A stretch of 64,000 bases of DNA from Actinomycetes bacterium (GTDB lineage: Bacteria; Actinomycetota; Actinomycetes; S36-B12), in NCBI GenBank assembly GCA_024639145.1, contig JAHEIZ010000016.1:1-64000 (forward strand). Direction: 5' to 3'. Positions 1,016-38,444 of this stretch are shown in pieces (positions within the stretch are counted from its first letter, which is position 1; each line of letters starts with the position of its first letter). The notes under the pieces are model-generated. The model ran no database searches. It was not told the DNA's origin and worked only from the letters and a program-made list of their open reading frames with translations. The position numbers and the translations under genes are program-made.

Positions 1016-1753
1016 TTACTTCAGATACGAGCGGTTCCCGAGTACCGCGCCGCCCACCCGGACATGTGTCGCCCCGGCCGCAATGGCCGCTTCTAGGTCA
1101 TCGCTCATCCCGGCGCTCATCATCTGGGCCTGGGGGTAGGACGAAAGCAAGGACGCTCGGACGGCAGCCAGCCGGGCGAAGGCGTCCACGGGGTCACCCG
1201 GATGGGGCGCCACCCCCATGACTCCCCCGAGCGAAAGGCCAGCAGCAGAAGACACCAACTCAGCCAGCTCAGGCACAGCGGAGGGCACAGCCCCGCCCCG
1301 GCCGGAGACAGGCACCGGATCCAGATTCACCTGGATCAGCACCGAAAGCGCACGATCAGCCGATGAGGCTCCTGCGGAGAGAGCCGCCACCAATGACGAT
1401 CGATCCACCGAGTGCACGACATCAGCCCATCGAGCCACCGACTTCGCCTTGTTCGACTGCAACTGCCCGATCATGTGCCAGCGAAGCGTCGACGACAGCG
1501 CGCCGAGCTCCGCATGCTTCTGCGAAGCCTCCTGATCCTTGTTCTCACCCACGTCGGTAACGCCCAAGGACGCCAGCAGGGCAATGTCAGAGGCAGGGAA
1601 GGTCTTGGTCACCACGATCAGGTGAACCGGGTCAGTACGCCCGCAGGCAGCCCGGGCCGCATCGATCCGCGCCTGAACAGCAGCCAGGTTCAAGCGCAGC
1701 TCGGAAAGGCGCGACGACTCACTCGCAACCGTATCGACCCCGAAAGACTCCAC
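1016..1753 (-). CDS. yggS: YggS/PROSC family pyridoxal-phosphate-binding protein
   Basis: YggS (PLPBP) proteins bind pyridoxal 5'-phosphate and keep vitamin B6 and amino-acid pools balanced; they have no firmly assigned enzymatic reaction. The protein is a single alanine-racemase-like TIM barrel with the PLP lysine in VVTKTFPASD, followed by GENKDQEA, WHMIGQLQSNK and, near the end, MSAGMSDDLEAAIAAGATHVR. I place the start at the GTG at 1753 (245 residues), behind GAGAGG at 8-base spacing; the longer frame overlaps the neighbouring beta-propeller gene and does not fit the family. yggS normally lies between pgeF and sepF, but here a secreted-protein gene separates it from pgeF. Confidence 0.92.
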   Translation of the reverse strand: MESFGVDTVASESSRLSELRLNLAAVQARIDAARAACGRTDPVHLIVVTKTFPASDIALLASLGVTDVGENKDQEASQKHAELGALSSTLRWHMIGQLQSNKAKSVARWADVVHSVDRSSLVAALSAGASSADRALSVLIQVNLDPVPVSGRGGAVPSAVPELAELVSSAAGLSLGGVMGVAPHPGDPVDAFARLAAVRASLLSSYPQAQMMSAGMSDDLEAAIAAGATHVRVGGAVLGNRSYLK

Positions 1754-1782
1754 GCCATCATCCTCTCGCAGAAGCGGAGGAA

Positions 1783-3015
1783 CTACTGGATCGACCAGCT
1801 GCCAGCCGTTGTATAGATCGGCTGTCGCACGCAGACGTACCCGCCGGTGCCGCCATTTGGCCACATGGCCCAGCTGGCTCCCCAGCCGGTGTCGTGCAGT
1901 GAGGCAATGCCGGGCCAGTCGGCCCAGCTCGGCGCCCCCGACACACACGTTCCGCCGGCGACTCGGCCGAAGGCCTGCATCGGCGCCGTCGGTCCGGGAG
2001 CCTCAGCGAGCAAGTTAACGACCGAGACAGAAGCGCTGCCCGCATTCGTCACGTACGCGTAGCGCCCACTGGCACTAATCGCGATCGATTCGGGCGAAGT
2101 TCCGACAACGATGGTCCCGGTGATTGTGTTCGTGGCCGTGGAGATGACCGAGACCGAACTCCCACTTTGCTGCGCAACCAGCACCGACAACCCATCCGGG
2201 GTCACGGCAATCGCCTTGGGATCAGTCGGAGCACTGATAGTCGAGACAACCGTGTTAGTCGATGTTCGAATCACATAGATCGAGTCGGCCAGAAGACTTG
2301 TCACATAGGCAAATTGGCCGTCAGGGGTAACGGTCACCCCAAACGGTCTCGAAACTGCCAAGATTGAAGCGACGACGGTGTTATCGGAGGTCTGGATGAC
2401 CTTCACCCTGTCGTTGTTGTAATCCGTGACGTAAACGAAGGCGCTGTTTGGCGTGACGGCAAGACCCTTGGGTGCGGCAAAGCCCGAAATTGTCGACACC
2501 GTGTCATTCGAGGTCTGGATCACTGCGACTTCACCGCCATTTGTCGCGGCGACGTAAACATGGGCGCCATCCGGAGCCACGGCAATCGCTGAGGGTCCTG
2601 TGATTCCGATACCCAGCTCGATCGTCGCCACGATCGAGTTGTCGGAGACGCGCAGTTTGGACACCGTGTGACCGGAACCAAAACCGCCGAAATTCGTCAC
2701 GTAAGCGAACTGGCCGTCGGGGGTTATCGCGACTCCGATTGGGCTGGTGAAACCGCCGATCGTCGTAGTCACCGAGTTGGATGCAGTGTCGATCACCGAA
2801 ACCGAGTCCGTGCCCGCAATCACATACGCGTAACGGCCATTGGGTGTCACGGCCACGCCCTGCGGATTCGAGCCGACACTCACGGTCGCTACGACAGTGT
2901 TCGCCGCCGCCGCGTAGGCGATCTCTGCGCCGACCACCGCCGTAGCGAGGGCCAGTACCGAGACAACCGCCACACTCAGTACCCGAGCACGCCCACTACG
3001 TCGCATGTCCCTCAC
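1783..3015 (-). CDS. Secreted YVTN/YncE-type beta-propeller protein with shared C-terminal module
   Basis: The N-terminus is a signal peptide (basic start, hydrophobic stretch to about residue 35, Ala-rich cleavage region). Residues 40-335 contain about seven 40-residue repeats with motifs such as VAVTPNGRYAYV and FAYVTN, typical of YVTN beta-propellers, which are usually extracytoplasmic binding scaffolds. The last 60 residues form a Cys/Trp-rich module with GWGASWAMWPNGGTGG then YVC, found again in the proteins at 24888-26096 and 34571-35152. The gene interrupts the usual pgeF-yggS adjacency on the same strand. Ligand and function are unknown. Confidence 0.85.
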   Translation of the reverse strand: MRDMRRSGRARVLSVAVVSVLALATAVVGAEIAYAAAANTVVATVSVGSNPQGVAVTPNGRYAYVIAGTDSVSVIDTASNSVTTTIGGFTSPIGVAITPDGQFAYVTNFGGFGSGHTVSKLRVSDNSIVATIELGIGITGPSAIAVAPDGAHVYVAATNGGEVAVIQTSNDTVSTISGFAAPKGLAVTPNSAFVYVTDYNNDRVKVIQTSDNTVVASILAVSRPFGVTVTPDGQFAYVTSLLADSIYVIRTSTNTVVSTISAPTDPKAIAVTPDGLSVLVAQQSGSSVSVISTATNTITGTIVVGTSPESIAISASGRYAYVTNAGSASVSVVNLLAEAPGPTAPMQAFGRVAGGTCVSGAPSWADWPGIASLHDTGWGASWAMWPNGGTGGYVCVRQPIYTTAGSWSIQ

Positions 3016-3042
3016 CTTAGGGGCGCAGTACGCACGAGCGAG

Positions 3043-3777
3043 TTACATCCGAACAGCGATCCCCTGCCGCCCCGTGACCCCATCACGGCGATACGAGAAC
3101 AAGGAATCAAGTTCCGCTGTGCACCCCGGCACCACAGACGCAGGAATACCCAACAACGACAGCTGAGCCACCACACCACCAGAGACATTGATCCGCGGCG
3201 AAACCCCGGTCGGGATAGCCGCAGCAGCCACCACCGGATGAACAGCAGAACGCAGCAACGACACCCGCTCCAGCGGCACCGGGTAGCACGAAGCGCAGAT
3301 CGAAGGCCCGACCACGGCGCGAATCCCCCGCGCCCCATGGGCCCGCATCACCGAGACGGCCGCAGAGACCACGCCGGCCCCGAGCCCCTTCCACCCGCAG
3401 TGCACCGCCGCAATCACCGTGCCCTGCCGATCAGCAAGCACCACAGGCACGCAGTCAGCAGCCAGGGCAACCAGCCCGAGCCCCGGTGTCACCGACACCA
3501 TCGCATCCACCCCGGAATACACCCCACCAGCAGACACGACAGCAACCTCGCCCCCGTGGCACGCATCGAGCACAGCCAACCCAACCCCGCCAAACCCAGA
3601 AGACAGAGCAGAGAAATTCGCAGCAACACAATCAGGGTCATCGCCCACATGCCCCGCCAGGTTCAGCGAGGCGAAAGATCCAGTACTCACGCCCCCCGAA
3701 CGACCAGTGGCCGCCCAGAAGACTGGACGGCCACCAGGTGACGATGGGTCGAGACGACCCTCGGCAACGGGATTCAC
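3043..3777 (-). CDS. pgeF: Multicopper-oxidase-fold/YfiH (PgeF) family protein
   Basis: PgeF (YfiH, formerly DUF152 'laccase domain') proteins are related to LACC1 and are reported to edit mis-incorporated L-Ser in peptidoglycan precursors or act on purine nucleosides. The signature residues are visible: CHGGEVAVV, LAADCVPVVL and AAVHCGWKGLGAGVV, which hold the Zn-binding Cys and His residues. The length of 244 residues is normal. The GTG start is two bases after the ftsZ stop, implying translational coupling. Position directly after ftsZ is the standard actinobacterial arrangement. Confidence 0.9.
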   Translation of the reverse strand: MNPVAEGRLDPSSPGGRPVFWAATGRSGGVSTGSFASLNLAGHVGDDPDCVAANFSALSSGFGGVGLAVLDACHGGEVAVVSAGGVYSGVDAMVSVTPGLGLVALAADCVPVVLADRQGTVIAAVHCGWKGLGAGVVSAAVSVMRAHGARGIRAVVGPSICASCYPVPLERVSLLRSAVHPVVAAAAIPTGVSPRINVSGGVVAQLSLLGIPASVVPGCTAELDSLFSYRRDGVTGRQGIAVRM

Positions 3778-3779
3778 GA

Positions 3780-4901
3780 CTACTTGAGGAAATCCGGAAT
3801 ATCGAGATCGTCGTCGGCATCGTCGAAGACGATCGTTCGCGGCTGCTGCACGGGACGGTCGGCCGGGGAAGTGACGACCGGCACCTCGCCGGTGGCGGTG
3901 ACCTCAACGGCTGCCTTGGCGGCAGCAACTGCGGTGACCTTGCGTGCCGGGGGCTCTCCGCCATCGAAGCCGGCGGCGATAACCGTGACACGCACCTCAT
4001 CACCGAGGGTGTCGTCGATGACGGCGCCGAAGATGATGTTGGCATCGGGGTGAGCGGCATCGCTGACGAGGCGAGCTGCCTCGTTAATCTCGAACAGGCC
4101 CAGATCGCTGCCGCCCGAGATGGAGAGCAGCACGCCATGGGCGCCGTCGATGCCGGCTTCGAGCAGCGGGCTCGAGATGGCACGCTCGGCGGCCTCAACC
4201 GCGCGATCCTCGCCGCGAGCCGAGCCGATGCCCATGAGGGCGGAGCCGGCCGAGTGCATGACGCTCTTGACGTCGGCGAAGTCGAGGTTGATCAGGCCCG
4301 GGGTGGTGATCAGGTCGGTGATGCCCGAGACGCCCTGGAGGAGGACGTGGTCTGCCTGGCGGAATGCGTCGATGACGGAGATGTTGCGATCTGACAGCGA
4401 GAGCAGGCGGTCATTCGGGATGACGATCAAGGTGTCGACCTCGGCACGCAGTGCCTCGATGCCGTCATCAGCCTGTGAGCCGCGACGGCGACCCTCGAAG
4501 CCGAACGGGCGGGTGACAACGCCGATGGTCAGCGCGCCAAGCGAGCGGGCAATGCGGGCCACGACGGGTGCGCCGCCGGTGCCGGTGCCGCCGCCTTCGC
4601 CTGCGGTCACGAAGACCATGTCAGCGCCGCGCAGGACCTCTTCGATTTCGCTCTCGTGATCGAGGGCTGCCTTCTGGCCAACCTCGGGATTCGCGCCGGC
4701 GCCAAGCCCACGGGTGAGCTCACGGCCGATATCGAGCTTGACGTCTGCGTCGCTCATGAGCAGGGCCTGAGCATCGGTGTTGATGGCGATGAACTCCACG
4801 CCCTTCAAACCGACCTCGATCATGCGGTTCACGGCGTTGACGCCACCACCGCCGATTCCGACGACCTTGATCACTGCCAGGTAGTTCTGCGGAGCCGCCA
4901 C
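3780..4901 (-). CDS. ftsZ: Cell division GTPase FtsZ
   Basis: FtsZ is the tubulin-like GTPase that forms the Z-ring. The protein (373 residues) begins [19 protein letters not shown], carries the nucleotide-binding tubulin signature GGGTGTG at about residues 103-109, the T7 synergy region [11 protein letters not shown] near 210, and the C-terminal tail [10 protein letters not shown] that binds partners such as SepF. The start is the GTG at 4901, with GAAAGGA 8 bases upstream; a longer in-frame opening exists but lacks family conservation. The usual upstream neighbour ftsQ is about 31 kb away (36129-37055), so ftsZ must rely on a promoter between it and the inserted genes. Confidence 0.98.
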
Positions 4902-5142
4902 GGCACCTGTCCTTTCGTTGGGCGCGACAGGGGAAGTCACGCTCGACCCTGGCCACAAACCCTCAATCTCAACCTGAGGTTAAGAATCGAGTCTGCTCGT
5001 AGCCGGCGGGAAGGTAGTGGAGGGTCTGGGGGAAATGCAAGGCGGACGCCCCAGGAACCCGGATTCACGAGAGAAAATGGCACGTCAAAGTGCGGTGTTC
5101 ACTGGTACGACAATAAGGAGTGGCCGAGTCCTTCAGGTTCGC
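4902..5142 (-). promoter_or_regulatory. Intergenic region upstream of ftsZ, probable promoter
   Basis: This is 241 bases without a convincing gene. It must serve ftsZ, which is cut off from ftsQ. A palindrome AACCTGAGGTT (4971-4981) lies about 70 bases upstream of the ftsZ GTG. I see no clear -10/-35 pair, so a promoter is inferred from position only. Confidence 0.35.
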
Positions 5143-24837: not shown

Positions 24838-24887
24838 ATTGAGGCTCTGAATTGGACCTCTCGGCTCAGCGTCTCGAAAGGCTGGTC

Positions 24888-26096
24888 ATGCGGCGCCCGC
24901 TCACAACACTCGGATTCCCCGTGGCAGCACTTCTGACTCTGATTCTGGGTTCCTCCGTCATAGCGCCGACGGCACAAGCAAGCGGCTCTGTCTCCGTGGC
25001 GACGACGGTGAATGTCGGAAATGGCCCCATGGGGGTCGCGACCTCAGGTGACTTCATCTATGTGACGAACTTCAGCGCGAACTCTGTATCAGTCATTGAC
25101 GGGAGTTCCAATCTGGTCGTGGGCACGATCTCGGTGGGCACTTCGCCGAACGACCTCACCATCGCAGGTGGCTACGCCTTCGTTGCAAACAAGTTCTCTG
25201 ACAATGTCTCGGTCATCCAACTGAGCAACAGGACGGTCATCAACACCATTACCGTCGGTCAGGGCCCGCAGGGTATTACCGCGGCCAACGGTTATGTCTA
25301 CGTCACGAATTGGTACGACCACACTCTTTCCGTTCTCAACGCCAGCCTGGCTGTCACGAATCCCTCCAGCGCCGTGGTTGCGACGCTTCAAGCGGGCTAT
25401 ACGCCGCATGGCGTTGCCGTTGCCAATGGGTTCGTCTATGTCACAGACGTATTTGACGATGAGGTGTCCATCATCAGCATCAGTCGCATCCTGACTGATC
25501 CGGCAAATGCACGGATTGGCTTCATAGCTGTCGGCGATGCCCCTCGCGGCATAGCCGTATCCAATGGCTTGCTGTATGTCGCCAACAACGATGCTGACAC
25601 AATTTCTGTGATCGATCCGAACACTAACCAGGTGGTCCGTGCATTCAACGCCGGCGACGGGCCTTACGGGGTGGCAGCGGCTGGCGGATACATCTACGTC
25701 ACGAATCAGAACGCCGATACATTGACGGTTTTTGCTTCTGCTAACGACAGCGTTGTCTCGACTGTGCCGGTCGGCGGCCTCCCGCACGGCGTGGCAGTCG
25801 GAACTGACTTCGCCTACGTCGCCAACTTCAACAGCAACAATGTCACAGTGATCAACGCGGCTCTCCCGGCCTCCGGCCTAAACGTCCCCACAGCAGCCCA
25901 GCAGGCTTACGCAATCAACTCGACTGACACCTGCGGCACGAACGTGCCGGACTCTGTTGCCCTGCCTGGCCTCGTGGGATCGCAGTCACTGGGTTGGGGC
26001 AAGAGCTGGCAGCAGTGGCCGAACAACGGCACGGGCGGTTACGTCTGCGTGCGCCAACCCTTCTACACGAGCTTGGGCACCTGGTCGGCGCGCTAG
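24888..26096 (+). CDS. Secreted YVTN-type beta-propeller protein with shared C-terminal module
   Basis: The ATG at 24888 with GAAAGG at 9 bases gives 402 residues; a TTG upstream is less likely. A signal peptide ends near residue 32 (APTAQASG). About eight propeller repeats follow (GVATSGDFIYVTN, GYAFVANKFSDNVSVI and others). The last 60 residues carry a conserved module, GWGKSWQQWPNNGTGG then YVC, nearly identical to that of the 1783-3015 protein, with which it also shares the architecture. It is probably an extracellular binding or surface protein. Confidence 0.85.
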   Translation: MRRPLTTLGFPVAALLTLILGSSVIAPTAQASGSVSVATTVNVGNGPMGVATSGDFIYVTNFSANSVSVIDGSSNLVVGTISVGTSPNDLTIAGGYAFVANKFSDNVSVIQLSNRTVINTITVGQGPQGITAANGYVYVTNWYDHTLSVLNASLAVTNPSSAVVATLQAGYTPHGVAVANGFVYVTDVFDDEVSIISISRILTDPANARIGFIAVGDAPRGIAVSNGLLYVANNDADTISVIDPNTNQVVRAFNAGDGPYGVAAAGGYIYVTNQNADTLTVFASANDSVVSTVPVGGLPHGVAVGTDFAYVANFNSNNVTVINAALPASGLNVPTAAQQAYAINSTDTCGTNVPDSVALPGLVGSQSLGWGKSWQQWPNNGTGGYVCVRQPFYTSLGTWSAR

Positions 26097-31513: not shown

Positions 31514-32284
31514 CTAGCCTGCAGGCCCTGAGGCACCTGTCGGCCCTGTCGGCCCTGAGGCACCTGTCGGCCCTGTCGGCCCGGTCGGACCGACGTAGCC
31601 CTGATCCCCGGTGAAGCCCGTCGGCCCCGTGTAGCCCGTCGGGCCCGTGGGACCGGTGGGACCGAACATGCCGGTCGCGCCCGTGTCGCCGGTGGCTCCC
31701 GTCGGACCAGTGGGGCCGTAACCAAACGGCCCAGTTGCGCCGGTGTCGCCCCGGTCACCAGTCACGCCCTGCGGGCCGGTGTAGCCGGTAGGACCAACAG
31801 GACCAGTGGACCCGTTCTGGCCGGCGGGGCCGGTAGGCCCGACGATGCCCGTGTTACTGCCGGTGGGACCAGTCGCCCCCGAAGTGCCGTTGGCACCATC
31901 TGAGCCGGCCGGGCCCGCGGATCCATCCGAGCCCGCCTGGCCTGCCGGCCCGGTCGCACCCGACGAACCGTTGGTGCCATTGACGCCATCGCTTCCGTCA
32001 GTTCCCGCTTGGCCCGAACGACCATTCGCGCCAGTTGCCCCTGCAACCCCTGCTGAACCATCGCTACCCGGGCTGCCGGGAGGACCTGCGGGACCTGCCG
32101 GGCCGGCACCGCCCGGAGCGCCAGGTTGACCGTTGGATCCTGAGGCTCCCGCACTGCCACCCGGCGCGATGATCTTGGTGACAACGGCTCCACCGATCAC
32201 GCCACCGAGAAGCGCAAGTGCGGAGTTCACGAGAACGCTCCGCCTGGCAATGAATCCGGACATCCCACCAAGAGGTGAGCTCAT
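31514..32284 (-). CDS. Collagen-like (Gly-X-Y) surface protein
   Basis: The 256-residue protein has one transmembrane or signal helix (about residues 19-41) and then about 70 Gly-X-Y triplets to the C-terminus, with small interruptions near GSNTGIVG and GPFGYGPTG. The second half is dominated by GPT and GAT triplets. Such repeats form triple helices; in Bacillus BclA, GPT threonines are O-glycosylated. GGGAG precedes the ATG. It lies between two glycosyltransferase genes. There is no LPXTG, so anchoring is probably through the N-terminal helix. Confidence 0.9.
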
Positions 32285-34570: not shown

Positions 34571-35152
34571 ATGGCCTCCGCACGCAAGCGCGTACTCATC
34601 GCAACGATCACCGGCGGGCTCTTCGCAGCGATCGGACTCATCGGGGCTGCGCCTGCCTCGGCGATCACGATCACCCTGGATTACATCAGCCCGACCTCCG
34701 GCTCCATTTACGGCGGCGACCTGGTGCACGTCCACGGATCGAACGTCGGCGGCACTCCGCACATCCTTTTCGGAGGAAACCTGGCTGCTCTCGTCAGTAT
34801 CGAGGGATACGACGACATCACCGTCGCAACGCCTCCTGGCGAAGTCGGCCCGGTTGATGTCACGCTCGTGACCGTGAACTCCGGGTCGATCTATCACTTG
34901 CAGGGCCGCGCGCCATCATCATTAACGCTCACCGACGGGTTCACCTACTTCATTCCGCCGCCCGCGCCGTGGTTCCAGTCCATTGGTCGCGCCAGCGCCT
35001 CGGCGTCGTGCCCGATGGGATGGAATCCCAGCTGGGCGGAGTGGATGAATGGCCACACCGGCGGGTTCGTCTGCAACCGCGAACAGTTCTGGAACATTTC
35101 ACTCGAGGACTGGAACTACCGACTCCTCCATTCCGCCGCCAACTCCCGCTGA
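34571..35152 (+). CDS. Secreted IPT/TIG-domain protein with shared C-terminal module
   Basis: The 193-residue protein has a signal peptide (to about residue 31, APASA), an IPT/TIG immunoglobulin-like domain (ISPTSGSIYGGDLVHVHGSN, ILFGGNLAALV, VATPPGEVGPVDVTLVT), and a C-terminal 55-residue module with GWNPSWAEWMNGHTGG then FVC, the same Cys/Trp pattern as in the two beta-propeller proteins. It is divergent from the glycosyltransferase cluster. Confidence 0.75.
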   Translation: MASARKRVLIATITGGLFAAIGLIGAAPASAITITLDYISPTSGSIYGGDLVHVHGSNVGGTPHILFGGNLAALVSIEGYDDITVATPPGEVGPVDVTLVTVNSGSIYHLQGRAPSSLTLTDGFTYFIPPPAPWFQSIGRASASASCPMGWNPSWAEWMNGHTGGFVCNREQFWNISLEDWNYRLLHSAANSR

Positions 35153-35177: not shown

Positions 35178-35786
35178 CTACTCCCCCAGAACCCGCGCCT
35201 TGATCTCTGACCAGTTGCCCAGGCGGTTGAGGATCATTGCGCCTGAAGGCGCGTGCGGAGCATTCACCTTCTTCCAGGCATTCCAGCCGGCGAAGGAGCC
35301 GCGAGTGTTCGGGTCGGCAAGGTAGCGGCGTACGTCGCTCAGGATTTCCTCGTCTGTCCAGGCCGAGGTGAAAGTGCGGTTGGGTTTCTTGCCGGCAGGC
35401 ACTCCGGCCTTCTCTGCAGCGTCGGCCCAGGAACCGAACACTTGAAGAACCCTGACTGAGCTCGGGCCTTCGACGATTTCGTCATGCACAAGTTGGTTGT
35501 AACGGGCGTAGCTCATGGAGGTCACGCTCTCAGTAGTGCTGATTGCCGCCCATGCCTGCCTGAGCGCCTCGAGGATCTCGTCTTCGCTCCACTTACGGCT
35601 TGATCCGGTTCTGTGACGAACGGCGAGCCTGCGAGCATCGTCTGTCATCGCCTTCGCGAGCTGGCTCTTGCTCCAGTTAAGCGCCTTCTGGGCATCGTCG
35701 ACCGTGCTGCCCGGATGTTCAGTGAGCCAGGCGACCAGCTCAAGTTGCGCCGACTCACCGCTGCTCGGACTAGGCAACGGGTTCAA
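35178..35786 (-). CDS. Protein with two HNH-associated (homing endonuclease-type) DNA-binding repeats
   Basis: The 202-residue protein contains two copies of a repeat of the type found with homing/HNH nucleases: KWSEDEILEALRQAW through VLQVFGSWADAAEKAG (about 66-121), and AWTDEEILSDVRRYL through RLGNWSEIKARV (about 142-198). No nuclease motif is present, so it is presumably a DNA-binding regulator. The start (TTG at 35786 or a nearby one) overlaps the HigA gene by 17 bases. Confidence 0.6.
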   Translation of the reverse strand: MNPLPSPSSGESAQLELVAWLTEHPGSTVDDAQKALNWSKSQLAKAMTDDARRLAVRHRTGSSRKWSEDEILEALRQAWAAISTTESVTSMSYARYNQLVHDEIVEGPSSVRVLQVFGSWADAAEKAGVPAGKKPNRTFTSAWTDEEILSDVRRYLADPNTRGSFAGWNAWKKVNAPHAPSGAMILNRLGNWSEIKARVLGE

Positions 35787-36128: not shown

Positions 36129-37047
36129 CTAGTTAATCGAGCCCTCGTCAGCGAAGGGATCGGAGGGCACGGCAGATGGCTCGGTGACGCTCGGGGCGGG
36201 ATCTGTGGTGGAACTCGCGCTAGGCGACGGGCTTGGAATCTTCTGCTTCTTCTTCGGGTTCTCGTCGAAGGTGGTCGGTAGTTCGGGGGCAGACACGTCA
36301 TACATCCGTGCTCTTCTGGGGAGGAGTGCAGTGAGCACGGCGATCTTCTGATCGCCCTTCTGGTCGTTGCCCCAGCGCACTACGGCACCGGAACCCAGGG
36401 TGAAGGTCACGTCATCGCGCGACTTCGCCGTGAGCGAGGCGATCTTGTGAGCGATCTCCTGCGGCAGCTGGCGATAGATGCGCACGGCAGTGCCGAGGGC
36501 ATCAGGGTCAGTGCCTTCGATAGTCAGCAGCTTCTTGGGCAGCGGTGTCGGGGACTGATACGCGATGCCGTCGGCATCGATGGCCTGACCGTCACTCGAC
36601 TGCGCGACCGCGACTCGCGGGGTGACCGCGATGACGATGTCATTCGGGTAGCCGCGACGCACGTCAACACTCGCGATCCATGGCAGGGCACCCTGAACGG
36701 CCGAGCCGATCGCGGCAGTGTCGACCTTGGCGATCGGCTCCCCCATGGGCACGGGGGCTGCGGCGATGACCTGCTGCTCGAGCTTGGCGTCGACACCGGT
36801 GACCTTCACGGCCTTGACGGCAAGAACGCTGGAAAACCAGACGAGCCAGATGGAGACGAGCACGAGCGTGGCGATCAGCAGGATGATGATCGCCTTCAGC
36901 GGCGACTTCCTCTTGCCCTTGCGGCGAGGAAGGCGGGTGACCTGGTCATTCCTGCTGCTCTTCGTGGTGCTGCTCTTGCCACCGCTGCTTCTGCTGCCAG
37001 AGGTGCTTCGGGTGCCGCTCGTCGGCTTCTTCTTGGCAGGCTTCTTC

Positions 37048-37055
<8 letters not shown>
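36129..37055 (-). CDS. ftsQ: Cell division protein FtsQ
   Basis: FtsQ links the early and late divisome with FtsL and FtsB. It has a long basic cytoplasmic tail (AEKKPAKKKPTSG and onward), one transmembrane helix (about residues 54-76), a POTRA-like segment (AVKAVKVTGVDAKLEQQVI) and the beta domain with SVDVRRGYPNDIVIAVTPR. A Ser/Pro-rich tail ends the protein. The GTG at 37055 overlaps the murC stop by 8 bases. It is normally followed by ftsZ; here a HigA gene follows. Confidence 0.93.

Positions 37056-38444
<1,389 letters not shown>

Follow-up and report, generated by a model that had tools for sequence, protein, structure and literature searches.

Three proteins encoded in the window, by which we mean the whole 64,000-nucleotide stretch of DNA analyzed here, ended in a common module that, as judged from its sequence and predicted structure, is an undescribed small extracellular domain with a Trp-rich β fold. 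An uncultured freshwater actinobacterial family has multiplied this module and fused the copies to many kinds of exported proteins. The best explanation, to which we assign a probability of roughly 0.5, is that the module is a portable non-covalent binding domain that keeps its partners on a single shared target, for which a polymer of the envelope or matrix of the cell itself is the most plausible candidate. At the cell surface, it would probably serve its many carriers as a common tag for attachment or binding; both surface retention and the type of ligand are what we infer.

According to the initial annotation, these secreted proteins, which have unlike N-terminal domains, all carry near the C-terminus the motif GW-x2-SW-x2-W-x-N-x2-TGG-(Y/F)-VC-x-R and, upstream of it, another Cys. 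We found the motif exactly in all three C-termini, together with the upstream Cys. Protein A (1783 to 3015, reverse strand) and protein B (24888 to 26096, forward strand, with an ATG start at 24888 and an alternative TTG at 24852) had YVTN/lactonase-type β-propellers, and protein C (34571 to 35152, forward strand) had a TIG domain (E=8e-8). All three began with a signal-peptide-like N-terminus, consistent with export, and their C-terminal part was covered by no model in Pfam or NCBIfam. Profile matches placed the modules at 1786 to 1983 (copy A, reverse strand, long subtype, E=1.6e-22), 25896 to 26093 (copy B, forward strand, long subtype) and 34967 to 35122 (copy C, forward strand, short subtype). 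In an alignment of about 70 columns, 16 were invariant, and direct BLASTP comparison of the modules of proteins C and B gave 47% identity over 36 amino acids (E=3e-10). The shared motif could not be attributed to chance, because a profile built on the three window copies recovered another 15 from the genome that carries them (2.52 Mb in 90 contigs). With the refined profile, all 18 copies in this genome were matched at E values from 1.7e-27 to 5e-13. These results indicate that the three modules, of about 50-70 amino acids, are homologous.

Within the division and cell wall (dcw) cluster, the gene for protein A is flanked by yfiH and yggS and has the same orientation (window 1016 to 3777). This cluster is split in the window: ftsZ (3780 to 4958) and ftsQ (36129 to 37085), which are usually near neighbors, are about 31 kb apart, and between them lie secreted-protein genes, glycosyltransferase-like genes and the genes for proteins B and C. 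The G+C content of the split stretch (3780 to 37085) was lower, at 0.57-0.62 versus about 0.65. By eye, we also noted a gene at 31514 to 32284, beside glycosyltransferase-like genes, whose putatively exported product has long Gly-x-y repeats (GPT/GPA) like those of collagen. The frame adjoining protein C (35178 to 35786) gave a weak match, below the cut-off, to HNH_repeat, a homing-endonuclease-associated repeat. A conserved link between the module and the dcw cluster was rejected, as no dcw gene lay near the module genes in stretches from six other genomes. At two loci (L074 and L079), module genes shared the locus with mtrA- and mtrB-like frames, again by eye.

Two congeneric genomes (G008 and G020) contained 31 copies of the module each. 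Within the family, 38 of 59 sampled genomes were positive, with 1 to 31 copies per genome. At the level of the order, 43 of 148 genomes were positive, and all of them belonged to that one family. No convincing module was seen outside the family in the class (297 genomes) or the phylum (296 and 396 genomes), where about 20 candidates were scored per genome, so that very diverged copies could escape. Weak matches in other families had E values of 4.8e-4 or higher; six that we inspected resembled chance frames, as did one further locus (L073). A scan of GTDB species contigs for the long subtype gave matches only in metagenome-assembled genomes whose record titles name actinobacteria, Ca. Nanopelagicales or an uncultured bacterium. 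The long-type profile had no relative in IMG/VR, a long module had none in plasmid records and the short module had none in phage records, and a viral origin was rejected given these searches. The module is thus, within the genomes searched, restricted to one family of uncultured freshwater actinobacteria, putatively of the order Ca. Nanopelagicales.

The collected 156 loci yielded 141 modules in 138 proteins. Across the 127 non-redundant modules, conservation along the sequence was 0.91 for Gln, 0.98 for the first Cys, 0.83 for Trp, 0.92 for Ser, 0.97 and 0.99 for the next two Trp residues, 0.84 for Asn, 0.98 for the Gly-Gly pair, 0.99 for the second Cys, 0.91 for Arg and 0.64 for a late Trp. 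Both Cys columns were retained in 137 of the 141 modules, and a single disulfide between these two near-invariant residues probably closes the module, given their conservation and the export of the carriers. The loop after the first Cys set the subtypes apart. Of the 46 short-subtype copies, 45 had six residues between the first Cys and the SW motif; the loop of the long subtype before this motif most often had 20 residues (range 17-32). This loop was also extended in a 'QSYQR' type. AlphaFold2 models built on the family alignments were confident and mainly β for both subtypes, with a pLDDT of 86.8 and pTM of 0.69 for the long one (copy B) and 86.4 and 0.65 for the short one (copy C, four strands).

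The initial annotation recognized no named family, and this was borne out with the family-wide profile, which matched no described domain in Pfam or NCBIfam. Sequence searches of Pfam, NCBIfam, PHROGs and the PDB returned weak unrelated matches or none, with no curated cut-off reached. Models of the two subtypes had no significant match in the PDB by Foldseek (best E=1.9 and 0.8) or in a VIA fold search (best Z 2.2 and 2.3), and the best E value in a viral structure library was 0.7. Searches of the literature turned up no account of the module. Small domains that bind carbohydrates or the wall, such as CBM5/12, LysM and SH3b, bear aromatic residues and occupy the ends of exported proteins or form tandem repeats in them. 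The module resembles them in its small size, its aromatic residues and its terminal or tandem position on varied exported proteins. However, it had no match to any carbohydrate-binding, lectin or wall-binding family in Pfam and no significant fold match; a relation to carbohydrate-binding modules (CBMs) may still exist. The thrombospondin type 1 repeat, with its W-x-x-W spacing, Cys and Arg near Trp, shares these features with the module and provides a lead only; the module has just two conserved Cys residues, and no TSP1 match was found in Pfam at E<=1.

Of the 124 frames whose 5' end was complete, 107 began with a signal-peptide-like or lipobox sequence, according to a simple heuristic rather than SignalP. 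Many of the remaining 17 were short, N-masked or apparently frameshifted. As far as this heuristic reaches, the matches were confined to exported proteins, as had been expected from the three window proteins. The partner domains included YVTN/YncE propellers, Lcl_C, pentapeptide repeats, GLUG, DUF5122, TIG and fn3. In 131 of the 138 proteins the chain ended within 35 residues of the module, and within 10 in most. The expectation that the module is always C-terminal did not hold for the other seven (about 5%), in which more than 90 amino acids followed it. Most of these internal modules came directly after the signal peptide. Next in the chain was an Lcl_C-like or propeller-like domain in L124, L127, L128, L131 and L143, and other sequence in L126 and L134. 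The same partner could occupy either side: Lcl_C preceded the module in L010 and followed it in L124, L127 and L128, some of these matches being below the curated cut-off, and a propeller preceded it in L012, while propeller-like repeats, seen by eye, followed it in L143. Three proteins carried a tandem pair of modules (L133, L124 and L102), and at least three carriers had lipoprotein-type signal peptides with lipoboxes (L133, L102 and L139).

The module was originally proposed to be a sorting, wall-binding or anchoring domain. Its attachment to different extracellular domains stood, and wall binding or anchoring is still plausible, while the sorting part was weakened by the internal and tandem copies and by the lack of a sortase-type tail. 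The inspected C-termini had tails of 0-31 residues, with no hydrophobic or transmembrane segment, basic tail or LPXTG-like motif. Sortase genes (PF04203) did not track the module copy number: no sortase match was found in genomes with 31 (G008), 10 (G016) and 8 (G036) modules, and four others had a sortase and no modules (G004, G011, G023 and G030). The module proteins were therefore rejected as sortase substrates, and the module as a strictly C-terminal, single-copy signal. A C-terminal sorting signal processed by an undescribed enzyme, in the manner of LPXTG, PEP-CTERM or T9SS C-terminal domains, would suit the prevalence of near-terminal copies and the lineage-specific paralogous expansion with varied cargo. 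It is nevertheless improbable in view of the proteins with a module right after the signal peptide, the tandem copies, the featureless tails and the missing link to sortase. The LPXTG/sortase and PEP-CTERM/exosortase systems likewise equip many secreted proteins with a short tag at the C-terminus, giving a 'choice of anchor' on shared domains, but the module is a folded two-Cys domain rather than a motif, transmembrane segment and basic tail. T9SS is not known in Actinomycetota. Its C-terminal domains (types A and B) in Bacteroidota are also common to exported proteins with unlike N-termini, but they belong to another phylum and a system that acts across an outer membrane, whereas the module also occurs N-terminally and in tandem.

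Taken together, the internal and tandem modules, the absence of a transmembrane or sortase tail and the independence from sortase argue against a cleaved sorting signal and favor a portable folded domain that binds non-covalently. Tandem copies are common among binding domains, and the partners on either side of the module also fit a folded binding domain. A wall polymer, an external glycan and a protein receptor would all be compatible with the present results, the protein receptor equally so. The lipobox carriers weaken the envelope-binding explanation, since they would already be held at the membrane and anchoring would not be the sole role of the module there. They would fit an adhesin or lectin module for external glycans, such as those on algal or particle surfaces, serving attachment or capture rather than retention on the cell itself. 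The Trp-rich small β domain with its putative disulfide and the partners, which are typical extracellular interaction domains, are in line with this possibility. We consider it somewhat unlikely, as the near-invariant core suggests a single common ligand over diversified recognition, and no lectin or CBM family was matched.

Binding to one dedicated surface receptor, as a protein-docking module like dockerins, appeared somewhat unlikely. Type B T9SS C-terminal domains offer a parallel, as proteins bearing them associate non-covalently with PorP-like proteins (PMC9143113). One small fold strongly conserved on many types of cargo, mostly at the protein end, would agree with docking. However, comparison of neighboring frames revealed no conserved receptor gene recurring beside the module genes and no one-to-one partner gene. 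The only clearly recurrent neighbors were NarL-type two-component genes, and these were not exclusive to genomes with modules.

In about a dozen loci, the all-against-all neighbor comparison showed module genes to adjoin genes for a divergent NarL-type response regulator (a receiver with a weak GerE domain) and for an ATPase protein resembling a sensor kinase. Pairs of the two adjoined modules in L084, L159, L046 and L080. With the Pfam model, 9 of 79 GerE (LuxR/NarL) genes were no more than 2.5 kb away from a module gene versus 2.3 expected, an approximately 4-fold excess (P=6e-4), in a post hoc count on eight genomes chosen partly after the effect was seen. A held-out test with a model of the regulator subfamily was weak, with 3 of 53 near modules versus 1.2 expected (P=0.12). 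The regulator family itself is expanded and divergent, with the signature DLxLGxGPSGLD, 16 matches at E<=1e-15 in the genome of the window, and weakly recognized sensor kinases (L084, 284 to 2712; L159, 4874 to 7212; L164, 13460 to 15693). The pairs and the GerE excess could be read as a sign that the module serves the adjacent two-component systems as a secreted ligand or as an accessory part of the sensor. We regard this as very improbable, because most module genes had no such neighbor, the regulator subfamily also occurred in module-free genomes, and the held-out test was weak. Local regulation by the two-component genes is likely for a subset of the module genes only. A broader and doubtful proposal is a lineage-specific, sortase-independent display, in which a new fold would plug tens of exchangeable exported domains into a single envelope receptor, partly under local two-component control.

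What is new is a lineage-restricted extracellular domain that, from its sequence, has no described relative in the libraries searched. It is well delimited, with a searchable profile and a predicted fold for which no relative was detected. The profile would annotate many hypothetical proteins in one go. There are up to 31 carriers per genome of 2.2-2.4 Mb, and little is known of the surface biology of these uncultured freshwater bacteria. The module makes protein display by these cells directly testable in a model actinobacterium.
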